Shown: piece by piece, positions 14,701 through 20,513 of the stretch
Numbering within the stretch: the stretch's first letter is position 1
Layout of the letters: each line of letters starts with the position of its first letter
Source: Phycisphaerae bacterium
GTDB taxonomy: Bacteria > Planctomycetota > Phycisphaerae > UBA1845 > PWPN01
Length of the DNA stretch: 38,008 bases
Direction: 5' to 3'
Assembly (NCBI GenBank): GCA_016928855.1
Contig: JAFGKA010000537.1
Span: forward strand, 1-38,008
Made by a program: the position numbers and the translations under genes
Notes under the pieces: generated by a model
Seen by the model: the letters and a program-made list of their open reading frames with translations, nothing else
Database searches by the model: none
Told to the model about the DNA's origin: nothing

Positions 14701-14711
14701 CCGGTTTGATC

Positions 14712-15800
14712 ATGCGAATCGCAATGCTGGCACCCATCAGTTGGCCGATCCCGCCGGCCGGCTACGGCCCGTGGGAACAGGTCGCCTGCAACATCACTGA
14801 AGGACTCGTCGCACTAGGCCATGAGGTGACGCTCTTCGCCGCGGCCGGCTCGCGCAGCACCGCCACTGTTGTCGAGACGACGCCGTACGCGATGGGCACC
14901 TGGCCCGAGGCCGAGCGAAACCGCCGGACAGCGTATGATCCGACGAGCGGGCTGCTCGAAGGCCCACCCGACTCGCGCGTCTGGGAACAACTCCACATCG
15001 CCACGGTAATGCAACGGGCCGCGGCCGGCGAGTTCGAAATCGTGCACTCGCACCTGCACGTACACGCGCTCGTGTTCGGCCGCCTGATCCCATGCCCGTT
15101 GGTTTCGACGCTCCACGGCGCCGCCTGGGTGCGCCCGGCCCACCCGATCTTCCTCGCCTACAAGGATCTGCCGTTCGTCTCTCTCTCGTACGCCGAGCGG
15201 CAGTTGCTGCCCGAGCTGAACTACGTCGGCAACGTCTACAACGGGATCCGGCTCGAGGACTTCCCGTTCGAGGCGGACAAGGACGACTACCTGTTGTTCG
15301 CCGGGCGCTTGTCACCGGAGAAGGGGCCGGCCGAAGCGATCGAGGTGGCCCGCAAGGCCGGGCGCCGCCTCCTGATCGCCGGCATGATCGAACCGCAGTA
15401 CAAAGAGTATTACGAAACGAAGGTCAGCCCGCACATCGATGGCCAACAGGTCGAGTACCTCGGCTTGCTGTCCCAGCGGGATCTCGCGCCCTATTACCGC
15501 AAGGCCGCGGCGGTGCTGTTCATGATCAGTTGGTGCGAGCCGTGCAGCATGGTCGGCATCGAGACGCAGGCGAGCGGCACGCCGATCATCGGCACTCGTT
15601 TCGGCTACCTGCCCGAACTCATCCGCGACGGCGAAACGGGCTTCCTCGTCGACACGACCGACGAAGCCGCCGCCGCGGTCGATCGCCTCGGCGACCTCTC
15701 ACCCGCCGCCTGCCGCAAGAACGTCGAGGAGCGATTCAGCGTGCCCGTCATGGCCAGGGGCTATGATGCTGTGTATCGGTCACTTGTGCAGGCTGTTTGA
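14712..15800 (+). CDS. Glycosyltransferase, family 4 (GT-B)
   Basis: This 362-residue cytoplasmic enzyme transfers a sugar from a nucleotide donor. The N-terminal acceptor domain starts MRIAMLAPISWPIPPAGYGP with the glycine loop GPWEQV, and EIVHSHLH and VSTLHGA follow. The C-terminal donor domain has LLFAGRLSPEKGP and the E-x7-E pair in CEPCSMVGIETQASGTP, the signature of GT4 enzymes, then GYLPELIRDGETGFLV. Length is normal. The ATG at 14712 is preferred over TTG at 14706. There is no ribosome site, but a promoter lies immediately upstream. The closest kind may be GT4 enzymes annotated as acting on mannosylated lipids or trehalose pathways, but specificity cannot be read here. Confidence 0.85.
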   Translation: MRIAMLAPISWPIPPAGYGPWEQVACNITEGLVALGHEVTLFAAAGSRSTATVVETTPYAMGTWPEAERNRRTAYDPTSGLLEGPPDSRVWEQLHIATVMQRAAAGEFEIVHSHLHVHALVFGRLIPCPLVSTLHGAAWVRPAHPIFLAYKDLPFVSLSYAERQLLPELNYVGNVYNGIRLEDFPFEADKDDYLLFAGRLSPEKGPAEAIEVARKAGRRLLIAGMIEPQYKEYYETKVSPHIDGQQVEYLGLLSQRDLAPYYRKAAAVLFMISWCEPCSMVGIETQASGTPIIGTRFGYLPELIRDGETGFLVDTTDEAAAAVDRLGDLSPAACRKNVEERFSVPVMARGYDAVYRSLVQAV

Positions 15801-16459
15801 AGAAAGGCAGAAGCAGAAGCGAAGAGGCCGACTCCAACAGTCGAGCCCGCCGCGCCGTAGGTTCGTATTGCGCAATTCGGTCATCGCGAACCCACCCCCG
15901 CTGTCGCGGGGATGGGCCACCCGGGACGACCTTGGAATGCCACTTCTGTGTGCCGCTGCTCTGTGAGCTTGCTGTTACCCACATCTCCTGTATGCATGCC
16001 CAACACACAACGGCCGCCGGCGATGGGCCAGTGTTCGAGGCTTCTTCAACCGGCGTATTGCTCACGCGATACCGTTCATTGGCCGCTTCAGCGGCCTTTC
16101 CGGCCGAAGGCCGGTTATTAGGCCGGTCCTTTTAGGGCCGGTAGAGCAGCCGACACACTCATCCCTCCTGTTCTTTCGCATAGCCCGTTTCAACGGGCTT
16201 CCCTGGACCGCCATCGACACGGCACATACGAACAAAAAGCCCGTTGAAACGGGCTACGTCTTACGGGAGAAGAAGAGGTGGGCACACGTCGCTGCCCGAC
16301 CAGCCCTAAAGGACTGGCCTATGGACCCGGCTTCGCCGGGAAAGCCCCCTCGAAGGGGGCCGGCGCCATGCGCCCCGCAACCGCTGAACAGATAGGATCA
16401 ATGTGGGTAACAGCAAGCTCTGTGAGCAGTGCCTCTGCCAGCAGCGCCGCGTACGCGAC
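15801..16459. other. Gene-free stretch of 659 bases holding the hairpin element
   Basis: No frame here looks like protein. The right-hand three quarters (15956-16429) are a structured element described separately. The first 155 bases show no motif I can name. Confidence 0.7.
15956..16429. repeat. Mirror-symmetric hairpin element bounded by inverted repeats
   Basis: A 29-base sequence at 15956-15984 returns inverted at 16401-16429: 20 identical bases, a 3-base block that differs, then 6 identical bases. Inside are eight hairpins, four per arm, in mirror order around about 16220. Left: 16081-16096, 16100-16114, 16123-16141, 16182-16199. Right: 16238-16255, 16300-16317, 16326-16340, 16344-16360. 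The innermost pair are exact inverted copies (AGCCCGTT-TC-AACGGGCT). In the next pair, CCGG/CCGG is replaced by CCAG/CTGG, so pairing is kept by a two-sided change. The flanks read TGCCG and TGCCT, a possible short target duplication. It may be a MITE-like or REP-cluster element; no transposase lies within it. Confidence 0.7.
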
Positions 16460-17776
16460 TCACACCTTGTCCGGCAACTCGTAGCCCTTGCGGCGGGCGC
16501 GGTCGAGGTATGTATTCGCCTCGTCGTCACCCACGAAGACTTCTTTCTTCGGATCCCAGCGAAGCTTGCGGTTCAGCCAACGGGCGATATTGCCCAGGTG
16601 GCAGACGGTGGCGCTACGATGGCCGATCTCGACGTCGGCGGCACAGAGCTTGCGCGACCGCATGCAGTCGAACCAGTTTCGCATGTGGTCGTCGCTCTCA
16701 TAGAGGCGAATGTCGCTGTCGCGGATGGGCTCGGTGACGATCTCGGCCGGATCGGACGTCACGCGGGCACGGTCGATCGTGATGCGGCCCTTGTCGCCGA
16801 TGAAGATGCCGCCACCGTGTGGGCCGTTATCGAGCTTGACCACCGGGCCATCGGCGTAGCGGTAAAAGATCATTGGCTGACTGCATCGTTTCTCGGCCTC
16901 GGCACGTGGCGCCGGCTCGGTAAAGACTGGAGGATCGAACTTGTCGCCCTCGACCCAAACCTCGACCGGCCCGGACTCGTCCGTCCCGAGCGCCCACTGG
17001 ATCTGGTCCAGTCCGTGGCTTCCCCATCCGGTCATCTCGCCACCGCCGAACCGCCGGAACGACAGCCACCCGGGGTTGGCCCGCGGTGTGTAGAGGTCGT
17101 TGTTGAACGCGATCGGATCGACCGGCCCGCACCATCGATCCCAATCCAGGCCCTCCGGAATCGGCTGCGCCGGCAAGCGGCACTCCCACGGACTCGGATA
17201 GTTCGACCCGATGACGGTGTGCACCTTGCCGATGCGCCCGTTGCGAACGAGTTCACAGCCCAGGCGGTTGGCCGCCATCGAACGCTGCTGGCTGCCCGTC
17301 TGGAACACCCGCTTGTACTTGCGGACGGCGTCCGTCAGCACGCGACCCTCGCGGATCGTCAAGGTCAGGCATTTTTCGGCGTACATGTCCTTGCCGGCCT
17401 GCGCTGCGTGGATGCAGCACAGGACCCGCCAATGATCGGGTGTGGCGACGATCACCGCATCGACCTCCTTGAGGTCGAGCAGCTCGCGGTAGTCCTGAAA
17501 CGCCTTCGCGCCGAACGGCTCGGCGACGGCCTGCGCCCTCGGCAGATTCACGTCCGCCGTCGCGACTACTCGGCCGAGCTTGGCCGCCTGCTGCAAAAGG
17601 CCCGTCCCCTGCCGTCCCGGGCCGATGATGCCAATGCCGATCTGCTCGTTCGCACCGAGTTGGGCCGGAGCCCCCAGCACCCGGGAAGCAAGCAACGAAG
17701 GCAGCGTTGAAGCGGCAGCCACGGCCGTGCCACGTTTCAGCAAATCCCGGCGGGAGAACGAACTCGACTGGCTCAT
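16460..17776 (-). CDS. Tat-exported Gfo/Idh/MocA-family oxidoreductase
   Basis: This 438-residue NAD(P)-dependent oxidoreductase probably acts on sugars or inositol-like compounds outside the cytoplasmic membrane. The N-terminus SSFSRRDLLKRGTAVAAAS is a twin-arginine signal with cleavage near LGAP. The Rossmann motif is IGIIGPGRQG. The family's EKP-like catalytic segment appears as YAEKCLTLT, with Cys in place of the usual Pro after EK, which is atypical. The C-terminal domain has GGGEMTGWGSHGLDQIQWALG. AAGGAG lies 6 bases before the ATG at 17776. Such Tat-exported paralogs are very numerous in planctomycetes; the substrate is unknown. It ends just outside the hairpin element. Confidence 0.88.
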   Translation of the reverse strand: MSQSSSFSRRDLLKRGTAVAAASTLPSLLASRVLGAPAQLGANEQIGIGIIGPGRQGTGLLQQAAKLGRVVATADVNLPRAQAVAEPFGAKAFQDYRELLDLKEVDAVIVATPDHWRVLCCIHAAQAGKDMYAEKCLTLTIREGRVLTDAVRKYKRVFQTGSQQRSMAANRLGCELVRNGRIGKVHTVIGSNYPSPWECRLPAQPIPEGLDWDRWCGPVDPIAFNNDLYTPRANPGWLSFRRFGGGEMTGWGSHGLDQIQWALGTDESGPVEVWVEGDKFDPPVFTEPAPRAEAEKRCSQPMIFYRYADGPVVKLDNGPHGGGIFIGDKGRITIDRARVTSDPAEIVTEPIRDSDIRLYESDDHMRNWFDCMRSRKLCAADVEIGHRSATVCHLGNIARWLNRKLRWDPKKEVFVGDDEANTYLDRARRKGYELPDKV

Positions 17777-17813
17777 GCGACACTCCTTGGAATCGAACGA
17801 AGGGGGGAAGAAA

Positions 17814-17886
17814 TGGAGCCGATGAGATTCGAACTCACGACCTCCTGCATGCCATGCAGGCGCTCTCCCAACTGAGCTACGGCCCC
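17814..17886 (-). tRNA. tRNA-Ala, anticodon GGC
   Basis: The 73-base transcript folds as a full cloverleaf. The acceptor stem GGGGCCG pairs with CGGCTCC through a G3-U70 wobble, the alanine identity element. The D-arm is GCTC...GAGC, the anticodon stem CCTGC/GCAGG with loop ATGGCAT (anticodon GGC, reading GCC), and the T-arm GTGAG-TTCGAAT-CTCAT. The discriminator is A. The CCA end is not encoded. Confidence 0.97.
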
Positions 17887-17924
17887 GGGATATCGTCGCG
17901 CGGACTCGACCCGCACGGTCCCGT

Positions 17925-17953
17925 ACCCTATCGGTTCGGCCGCGGGCTGTCAA
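17925..17953 (-). promoter_or_regulatory. Promoter of the tRNA-Ala gene
   Basis: On the minus strand TTGACA (17948-17953) and TAGGGT (17925-17930) are separated by exactly 17 bases. The -10 box ends 38 bases before the tRNA 5' end, leaving a leader of about 30 bases for RNase P removal. Confidence 0.7.
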
Positions 17954-18011
17954 GCCGACGAGACCACCGCAGCCCGGCCGCCGCACCCCCGAATCCAGCC
18001 CCGTCCCGCCG

Positions 18012-20513
18012 TCAGATGAACAGGTTCACATTCGCATTCTCGGCCTCGCCGAGGTACATCCCGACGCCGCCGACCTCGACGCCGTCGATCAGTTCCTCGC
18101 GGGTGATACCCATCACATCCATCGACATCGCGCACGCCACCAGCCGCACACCGGCCTGACGGGCCTGGGCCATCAGCGCCGGCAGCGCATCAACATTCTT
18201 GCTCTTCATGACGTACTTCATCATCGCCGTGCCCATGCCGGCCATGTTCATCTTCGACAGCGCGAGTCGAGCAGCCCCGCGCGGCATCATCCAGCCGAAC
18301 ATCCGCTCGATCAGCCGCTTGCGCACCGGCGGCGGATCCGGCCGCCGCAGAATGTTGAGCCCCCAGAACGTGAAGAACATCGTCACCGGACTGCCCATCG
18401 ACGCGGCCCCATTGGCGATGATGAACGACGCCATCGCCTTGTCGAGGTCGCCCGAGAAGACAACCAACGTTTTCCCCTGAGGACTGTTCGCTTGCGTATC
18501 GCCGTGCAGCGGATGGGGCTGGCCGCGTTTCCGGATCGTCGCGACGTAATGGCCGTTCTCCGGCTCGACACGCAACAGTTCATGACCCGTATGCCGACAC
18601 CACGCCGGAATGTCGCTGACGAACCCGACATCCGTTGCCAATACGTGGAGCACCTGCCCGGCCCGGAGATCGGAAATCGCCCGCCCCACTGCGACGATCG
18701 GCCCGGGGCACTGCTTGCCCCGCACATCCAAAGTCGCCGTCGGCGTCGTATCCGCTGAGGTCTTCGACGTGGGCGCCGGCAGATGCGTTGGCAACTCCGG
18801 CGTCTCCGGCTTCGCCGATGAAGGCGTCGGATCACAGCAGTTTCCACTGCTCGACGACGCACAACCGGCGGTCTGCTGGTCCGGATGAACAGCACAGTAT
18901 GTCTTGTAGCCGCCGGAGAGATTGCGTGCATCGTAACCGAGTTGCGTCAGAATGCGGGCCCCGACATAGCCGCGAAGCCCGACCTGACAATACACCGTGA
19001 TGGGCTTGTCCTTGGGCAGTTCACCATGCCGCGCGCGCAGGCGGTCCAGCGGAATCAGGACCGAACCCGGAATCGCCCCGGCCTCGTGCTCGGCCGGCTC
19101 GCGCACGTCCAACAGAACCGTTCCCTCGATCGCGTCCGCATGCGCCAATGTTGTATCGCCGCGAAGCGCGTTCGCCGCCGCAAACGCCGCGATGTTCACC
19201 GGATCTTTCGCCGCACCGTATGGCGGCGCGTAGGCCAGGTCGGCCTCTTCGAGGTCATAGACGCTCATACCCGCCTGAATCGCCATCGCGAAGACGTCGA
19301 TGCGCTTGTCCACGCCCTCGGTGCCGGTGATCTGCACGCCGAGCGCACGGCCATCCGACGGCGCGAACAGCAGCTTGATCGCCATCGGTGCCGCCCCGGG
19401 GTAATAGCCCACATGGTGGCTCGGGTGCACGTAGACCTTCTCATAAGCCAGTTCCGCGCGACGAAGCACCTTCTCGCTGGCGCCGGTCATGCCCACGACC
19501 AGATCAAACACGCGCACGATGCTTGTGCCCTGCGAACCACGATACCGACTCGGCCGACCGAAGATGTGATCGGCCGCGATACGCGCCTGCCGATTCGCCG
19601 GCCCGGCCAGTGGAATCAGCGTCTCGACGCCAGTCACGAAATCCTTAACGGCGACCGCATCGCCGACGGCGTAGATGCTCGGATCGGACGTCTGCATGTG
19701 CTCGTTGACGCGGATGCCCCCGCGCTCGGTCAACTCAAGCCCCGCGGCCTTGGCCAGATCGCGCTCCGGCCGCACGCCAACCGAAAGCACCACCAGATCC
19801 GCCGTCAGCTCCTCCCCGCTCCGCAGTTGGGCACGCACCGCCCCGTCCGCGTCGGCGAACGCCTCGACGGCATCAGACAGGTGCAGGTCGATTCCATGCA
19901 GTTCGAGCACCTGATGGATAGCCGTGGCCATCTCACGATCGAGCGGCGGCATGACCTGATCCAGCAACTCGACCAGATGCACGGAGAGCCCGCGATGCTT
20001 GAGGTTTTCGGCCATTTCCAGGCCGATGAAACCACCGCCCACCACGATCGCGCTGCGGGCTCCGGCATCAACCACCGCCTTGATCTGATCCGTATCCGGT
20101 ACGTTGCGCAGCGTGAAGATCTTCGGATGATCGACGCCGTGGATCGGCAGCCGTACCGGCGCCGCGCCAGGCGAGAGAAGGAGCTTGTCATACGTCTCGG
20201 TATACGTCCGATCGCCGGCAAGATCACGCACCGTGACCTTCTTCGCCGCCCGATCGATCGAGACGACCTCAGTCTGCACACGCACGTCCAGGTTGTAGCG
20301 CCGATGCAACCCCTGCGGCGTCTGGAGCAACAGGCGCTTGCGCTCGGCAATCTCGCCACCAATGTGATATGGCAGGCCGCAGTTCGCGAACGACACATAG
20401 GGGCCGCGTTCAAAGACGATGATCTCCGCGTTCTCGTTCAACCTTCGCGCCCGGGCGGCGGCCGTCGCCCCCCCTGCCACGCCACCCACGATCAGAAGTC
20501 TCGTGTCAGCCAT
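18012..20513 (-). CDS. Four-domain sulfur-relay flavoenzyme: CoA-disulfide-reductase-like, rhodanese, TusA and DsrE domains
   Basis: This 833-residue fusion combines four sulfur-handling modules. Residues 1-445 are an FAD/NAD(P)H disulfide reductase of the CoA-disulfide/persulfide reductase type: FAD motif GGVAGGATAAA, active C45 in SFANCGLPYH, NAD motif GGGFIGLEMAE, and YAVGDAVAV. Residues 455-545 are a rhodanese with C509 in YCQVGLRG. A linker with several cysteines (551, 559, 560) follows. Residues 593-662 are TusA-like, with C602 in GKQCPGP. Residues 680-833 are DsrE/F-like, with C794 in VACAMSMDVMG. All four catalytic cysteines are present, so persulfide sulfur could pass along one chain. 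The ATG follows GAGGAA. An ArsR-type gene lies 69 bases upstream in the same direction. Similar multi-domain fusions are known in other bacteria; the exact substrate is unproven. Confidence 0.9.
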   Translation of the reverse strand: MADTRLLIVGGVAGGATAAARARRLNENAEIIVFERGPYVSFANCGLPYHIGGEIAERKRLLLQTPQGLHRRYNLDVRVQTEVVSIDRAAKKVTVRDLAGDRTYTETYDKLLLSPGAAPVRLPIHGVDHPKIFTLRNVPDTDQIKAVVDAGARSAIVVGGGFIGLEMAENLKHRGLSVHLVELLDQVMPPLDREMATAIHQVLELHGIDLHLSDAVEAFADADGAVRAQLRSGEELTADLVVLSVGVRPERDLAKAAGLELTERGGIRVNEHMQTSDPSIYAVGDAVAVKDFVTGVETLIPLAGPANRQARIAADHIFGRPSRYRGSQGTSIVRVFDLVVGMTGASEKVLRRAELAYEKVYVHPSHHVGYYPGAAPMAIKLLFAPSDGRALGVQITGTEGVDKRIDVFAMAIQAGMSVYDLEEADLAYAPPYGAAKDPVNIAAFAAANALRGDTTLAHADAIEGTVLLDVREPAEHEAGAIPGSVLIPLDRLRARHGELPKDKPITVYCQVGLRGYVGARILTQLGYDARNLSGGYKTYCAVHPDQQTAGCASSSSGNCCDPTPSSAKPETPELPTHLPAPTSKTSADTTPTATLDVRGKQCPGPIVAVGRAISDLRAGQVLHVLATDVGFVSDIPAWCRHTGHELLRVEPENGHYVATIRKRGQPHPLHGDTQANSPQGKTLVVFSGDLDKAMASFIIANGAASMGSPVTMFFTFWGLNILRRPDPPPVRKRLIERMFGWMMPRGAARLALSKMNMAGMGTAMMKYVMKSKNVDALPALMAQARQAGVRLVACAMSMDVMGITREELIDGVEVGGVGMYLGEAENANVNLFI

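Follow-up and report, generated by a model that had tools for sequence, protein, structure and literature searches.

A probable nest of three mobile-DNA layers in a planctomycete genome: a dispersed palindrome, a Tn5-type miniature transposon and a four-hairpin cargo of Y1 type

All nine copies of ISRm22, an insertion sequence of the IS4 family, lie in REP sequences, a preference that Tobes and Pareja (2006, PMC1525189) related to the palindromic 9-bp targets used by Tn5. Y1 genes have been described in several palindromic settings: those of REPtrons and TIRYT have several palindromes on their flanks, or else terminal inverted repeats, which can be self-complementary, REPtrons being described as non-transposing as a unit (PMC6006769, PMC3733652), and IS608 presents a single hairpin per end (PMC6006769). 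REPINs contain no gene; they consist of a pair of hairpin units in inverted orientation and appear to depend on a Y1 transposase, the RAYT, located elsewhere in the genome (PMC3116915; PMC8049555).

We analyzed a window of 38,008 nucleotides (the whole stretch of DNA under study, contig C88) from a planctomycete assembly of 5.28 Mb in 606 contigs (92% complete), which was also searched for copies. The element found in this window resembles ISRm22 and other REP-inserting insertion sequences in its palindromic targets, but it differs from ISRm22 in that it is a non-autonomous miniature transposon (MITE), is found in planctomycetes, uses several palindrome classes and carries an array of hairpins as cargo. 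This cargo resembles REPINs in having two inverted, gene-less hairpin units and an apparent dependence on a Y1 transposase encoded elsewhere in the genome; unlike REPINs, each arm contains four hairpins over about 120 bp rather than one REP and lacks a GTAG tag, and the Y1 gene, unlike RAYTs, scores as an IS200/IS605 TnpA (NF033573). A Y1 gene with flanking palindromes or inverted repeats is shared with REPtrons and TIRYT genes, whereas two traits depart from REPtrons: at least two distinct tnpA copies in one genome share a fixed gene-hairpin junction, and the order of the hairpins is identical on both sides of the gene in relatives. As in IS608 and ISDra2 (IS200/IS605), the HUH and tyrosine motifs are conserved (similarity to the TnpA of ISHp608, E = 3e-7), but the single hairpin of each IS608 end is replaced by inverted arrays of four. 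The reading that we favor, with a probability of about 0.77, is that the locus is made of three nested layers of mobile DNA: a palindrome, a Tn5-type MITE and a hairpin cargo derived from a Y1 transposon. Each layer would be of a known kind; in open papers, neither a Y1 element whose inverted arms have four hairpins each, nor the carriage of such arms by a Tn5-like MITE that targets REPs, nor the triple nesting was found described.

The element lies between two convergent genes, a glycosyltransferase gene (14706-15800, plus strand) and a Gfo/Idh/MocA oxidoreductase gene on the minus strand (16460 onward; its longest mechanical frame spans 16460-17986). A preliminary description had given an array of 474 bp bounded by 29-bp inverted repeats. 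The outer 29-nt arms are indeed 90% complementary, but they are made of a 17-bp terminal inverted repeat (TIR) plus 12 bp of a target palindrome, and the mobile unit is corrected to 450 bp (15968-16417), with a left TIR of sequence CTTGCTGTTACCCACAT at 15968-15984 (plus strand) and a right TIR at 16401-16417 (minus strand). The region has 69 matches in the same genome and thus constitutes a dispersed repeat. The end motif GTGAGCTTGCTGTTACCCACAT was found 37 times with up to three mismatches (vs 0 for the reversed pattern), and the TIR yielded approximately 37-48 matches depending on stringency (0-2 for the control). Complete copies with two ends (382-481 bp) are present at five sites, the window itself (C88) and contigs C521, C248, C394 and C220. 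From end to end, the copies of C248, C394 and C220 share 90-94.5% identity although their flanks are unrelated, which shows that the composite of MITE and hairpin cargo, as judged from these sequences, has moved as one unit. Shorter elements share the same ends with other interiors; several such ends are cut by contig ends, with identical interiors. The element is short, has 17-bp TIRs and contains no ORF of at least 100 aa wholly inside the 450-bp unit, as is typical of MITEs, and the suggestion of a MITE-like element is borne out by many copies at unrelated sites with the same hairpin order, a target duplication and intact empty targets. Exact matches to GAGCTTGCTGTTACCCACAT revealed ends in JACRLV01, JAGMDK01, JAJDDU01, JAUWNI01 and CP054190, all Planctomycetota, and complete elements in other genomes measure 140-312 bp. 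A single TIR match in viral contigs had no palindrome flank and was taken as chance.

The target of the element is a dispersed REP-like palindrome, GTGTGC-CACTGCTC-TGT-GAGCAGTG, which is split within its loop. In the window, the left part of this palindrome (15948-15967, plus strand) comprises the tag GTGTGC, the half stem CGCTGCTC, the loop TGT and GAG, and the right part, CTCTGTGAGCAGTG, occupies 16418-16431 (plus strand). The target-site duplication is an exact 9-bp direct repeat, CTCTGTGAG, found at 15959-15967 and 16418-16426 (both plus strand); the flanks TGCCG/TGCCT, put forward earlier as a hint of it, are not the duplication, which lies inside the 29-bp repeat. When the ends are aligned, CTTGCTGTTACCCACAT is conserved inward and the half palindrome CACTGCTC-N2/3-GAG is found outward in two flavours, with or without a preceding GTGTGC. 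Exact copies of the whole palindrome number 24 in this genome, 345 in G423, 48 in G422, 30 in G009 and 28 in G425 (reversed pattern: 0). The intact palindromes examined in this genome all read GTGTGC-CACTGCTC-N2/3-GAGCAGTG in the same orientation (20/20), so that this sequence of 25 bp, within the 20-40 bp of REPs, is REP-like in its constant tag and high copy number. Filled sites read GTGTGC-CACTGCTC-TGT-GAG[element]CTC-TGT-GAGCAGTG, with the tag on the left side only and CTCTGTGAG duplicated.

Among 45 distinct TIR ends of this genome, 44 adjoin a half stem similar to CACTGCTC by relaxed match. The match is loose for one of them (C445), owing to its position in a coding gene, and the remaining end (C322) adjoins a variant palindrome half, CACTGGCTTTGAG, which leaves 43 clear cases. 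The TIR copy of C445 (locus L062, about position 1500) interrupts this gene, which by eye resembles one for a formylglycine enzyme, with a PEP-CTERM-like tail. An exact duplication of 9 bp is found in C88 and one of 8 bp in C220; 9 bp, GCTGCAAAC, are also duplicated in G425, and the others are of 8 bp or mutated. Of the five complete copies, some have a given arm next to the GTGTGC tag and others have it on the side without the tag, which indicates that the element inserts in both orientations. Together with the abundance of intact palindromes, these two orientations relative to the GTGTGC tag rule out that the palindrome halves are the element's own ends. Other palindromes are split by this TIR in JAUWNI01 and JAGMDK01, namely CACCGG-CTGCAAA-CCGGTG, where the 9 bp GCTGCAAAC are duplicated, and CGCGGGCTnnAGCCCGCG, where GGCTAAAGCC stands against GGCTGAAGCC. 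The target is therefore the loop of palindromes able to form hairpins, not a single sequence. Not every site presents a clean duplication, since the loops differ on the two sides of the complete copy of C394 (L017; GA/TGT) and of a Tn5-like derivative in G425 (L178, G425:C73, 1379-1720; GTCA/TGAC); these unlike loops probably result from recombination between copies. The 345 exact palindromes of G423 (JAGMDK01) often form inverted pairs about 42-54 bp apart, resembling a REPIN population of their own. The tagged palindrome was also seen in 11 stretches (L201-L211) of contigs classed as viral, which may be misclassified planctomycete DNA.

Inside the MITE, the eight hairpins that had been described were all located, in mirror order about position ~16218. 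The left arm (16081-16199, plus strand) carries H1 (16081-16096), H2 (16100-16114), H3 (16123-16141) and H4 (16182-16199); after a spacer of 38 bp (16200-16237), the right arm (16238-16360, minus strand) presents the inverted order H4 (16238-16255), H3 (16300-16317), H2 (16326-16340) and H1 (16344-16360). The sequence TAGG stands directly before H3, at 16119-16122 on the left and at 16318-16321, minus strand, on the right; it is conserved and unpaired. Comparison of the sequences confirmed that the innermost hairpins are exact inverted copies. Folding of the 474-bp region is much more stable than that of dinucleotide shuffles (z = −12.3 as RNA and −11.2 as DNA; none of 100 shuffles as good). 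A dyad in the centre spacer was not retained as a conserved feature: of 11 spacers, C240 alone is clearly distinct, two (C220 and C502) are borderline and eight resemble shuffles. As the preliminary description had proposed, we looked for covariation on the copies, with 41 arms and 28 pairs. Standard pairs make up 96.1% of the 1135 pair cells, and two-sided changes were observed in 102 cells and in 12 of the 28 pairs. The covariation score is 0.288 (12 pairs), relative to 0.03-0.09 (3-5 pairs) for controls with slid partners. The double change from C-G to A-T noticed between the two H3 hairpins was confirmed and is seen repeatedly among the copies (alignment columns 46/60: AU 23, GC 16). The structure of the arms is maintained.

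The fetched loci contain 58 occurrences of the four-hairpin arm, with double counting where loci overlap, and the arm is present in four other genera (G006, G009, G011 and G016). Double arms without TIRs are found in this genome (C217, C461, C240 and C514) and in other genera, a REPIN-like distribution in which two inverted copies of a hairpin unit are dispersed at many sites with and without TIRs. In G016 and G009, an open frame of approximately 160 codons has one arm on each side, in the same inverted layout; it starts 30-34 bases from H4 and encodes a Y1 transposase (PF01797, E ~1e-20; NF033573, IS200/IS605 TnpA, above cut-off) whose HUH and YxxxQ motifs align with those of the ISHp608 TnpA (E = 3e-7). 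In this genome, two different partial tnpA copies (C514 and C14) are fused to an arm on their assembled side only, both being cut by contig ends. At every 3' junction seen, in three genera, the stop codon of tnpA falls inside H4, the hairpin that corresponds to H4 right in the window. The tnpA loci were found through searches with the arms and their linkage is therefore ascertained; the fixed gene-hairpin junction makes it unlikely that the linkage is due to chance.

The arms flanking tnpA in relatives, the fused partial copies and the covariation of the arms together suggest that the core derives from a Y1 element, has lost the gene and resembles a REPIN, the eight hairpins being cargo and the putative remains of a transposon that moves as single-stranded DNA. 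The core does not qualify as a strict REPIN, since the only NCBIfam match is IS200/IS605 TnpA rather than a RAYT, and since TAGG before H3 is found instead of a GTAG at the hairpin feet. For the inner core, the earlier suggestion of a pair of REP clusters is near the mark, as its arms border a Y1 transposase gene in relatives. TnpA would presumably bind the hairpins on single-stranded DNA. The four bases just 5' of H3 (T40, A41, G42 and G43 of the arm alignment) are conserved though unpaired, and one might speculate from their likeness to IS200/IS605 guides (PMC6006769) that TAGG is a candidate guide tetranucleotide. Searches of viral contigs found no relative of the Y1 protein, and a plasmid collection returned only distant TnpA relatives (about 30% identity). 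At six loci of G009 and G016 (L068, L078, L079, L084, L073 and L075), a common motif similar to CCGGGTCCGTGACA lies outside the arms, inverted on the two sides in some loci; this border is possibly another element end or a target.

Tn5 ends read CTGACTCTTATACACAAGT, and Tn5 makes 9-bp duplications; the ends of the MITE resemble those of Tn5. A search of six genomes for the DNA-binding domain of Tn5 transposase (PF14706) returned two matches, in G423 and G425. The G423 gene is truncated by the end of its contig; it begins some 100 bp inward of an element end, CTTGTTGTTCTACACAT, which adjoins half of a palindrome, GGGGGCGTGAGCC. Its product matches PF14706 (E = 3.5e-21), the Tn5 transposase of the PDB (E = 8e-6) and an IS4/Tn5 domain of NCBIfam. 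In G425, a deleted Tn5-like copy is bounded on both sides by an end of the CTTGTTGTTCTACACAT type. The window's TIR agrees with CTTGTTGTTCTACACAT at only 13 of 17 positions (4/17 differ), PF14706 is absent from the window's own assembly (92% complete, 606 contigs), and the genomes searched yielded no full-length transposase of Tn5 type with precisely the TIR CTTGCTGTTACCCACAT. None of 30 PF01609 transposases fetched from these genomes carries the TIR; no ORF lying inward of single TIRs in other genomes appeared transposase-like by eye; and a short open frame at the end shared by C58, C445 and C481, considered as a Tn5-like C-terminus, had no family match. The TIRs could accordingly belong to another DDE family whose short ends came to resemble those of Tn5 by convergence, as the partial agreement and the lack of the transposase in this genome would allow. 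We regard this as unlikely, given that the duplication is 9 bp as in Tn5, that Tn5-like ends use the same palindromic targets, that both kinds of end share the pattern CTnnnTnTTnnnCACA, and that the deleted Tn5-like copy of G425 has its end on both sides. The element is thus likely a miniature transposon of the IS4/Tn5 (IS50-like) type, an assignment kept at this level because PF14706 is missing from its own assembly and the fetched PF01609 transposases are without the TIR. Contig breaks inside the repeats probably hide autonomous copies. A transposase of this type presumably acts on the TIR, and the element may still be active.

Two other alternatives concern the hairpins. The array could be cargo of the TIR element only, with arms that were never Y1 ends and an incidental association with Y1 genes in relatives. 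Many arrays of this genome do lie beside or between TIRs, and such composites move as units, but double arrays occur without TIRs in this genome and in other genera, and the placement of the tnpA stop codon within H4 recurs at every 3' junction seen in three genera; this alternative is distinctly improbable. Still less credible is a structured RNA read from both ends, in which the hairpins would be selected as RNA, e.g., as terminators or stabilisers. The strong covariation would fit such an RNA, but hairpins that a Y1 transposase binds as DNA would be expected to covary just as well. The G-U strand bias reported for one hairpin pair holds weakly across the arms: on the H1-to-H4 strand, 49 G-T cells exceed 11 A-C cells, in line with a structure specific to one strand, but 29 of the 49 fall in two columns and the difference by columns is 16 to 9. 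A single terminator-like site was found at H4 right on the minus strand, whereas no Rfam family reached its gathering score over the region and no promoter-like site was found, leaving no positive evidence for the RNA locus that had been suggested. Moreover, the arms flank a transposase of the Y1 family, which binds DNA hairpins (PMC6006769), and the unit lies between TIRs at unrelated sites.

Under the three-layer reading, the first layer would be the REP-like palindrome dispersed in the genome. The second would be a non-autonomous DDE element of IS4/Tn5 type with the TIR CTTGCTGTTACCCACAT, which would enter the loop of the palindrome and duplicate about 9 bp, its transposase acting in trans. 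The third, the cargo, would be the gene-less remnant of an IS200/IS605-type (Y1 HUH) element whose inverted arms flank tnpA in related genera; it would relate to the tnpA elements as REPINs do to RAYTs, with four hairpins for the one of a REP, and in the window the 38-bp spacer would replace the tnpA gene. The second and third layers would move as a single unit. It is conceivable, at somewhat less than even odds, that the composite is movable by two transposases, one of Tn5 type that cuts and pastes double strands at the TIRs, the other an HUH enzyme that acts on single strands through the four-hairpin ends. In that case, the dispersed palindrome would be a renewable landing site, and three repeat populations would be interdependent in one genome. 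The three-layer reading would also add a miniature Tn5-like family that targets the hairpin loops of several palindrome classes in at least six planctomycete assemblies, and a Y1 (IS200/IS605) lineage that has many derivatives without the gene and whose inverted ends bear four hairpins each, where the textbook form has one. With four hairpins per end, this lineage can test how an HUH transposase chooses among hairpins. Many contigs end within these repeats, which suggests a reason for the fragmentation of such genomes in assembly.

Two further features were observed in the window. A tRNA-Ala (anticodon ggc; 17814-17886, minus strand) lies inside the longest frame of the Gfo/Idh/MocA gene, and the true start of this gene is therefore probably downstream of the tRNA. 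At 20317-20485 (plus strand), the Rfam family Vibrio RNA AS7 (RF02819) matches above its gathering score (100.7 bits), antisense inside a gene (18015-20513, minus strand) for a multi-domain pyridine nucleotide-disulphide oxidoreductase; conservation of the coding sequence is a likelier cause of this match than a genuine Vibrio RNA.
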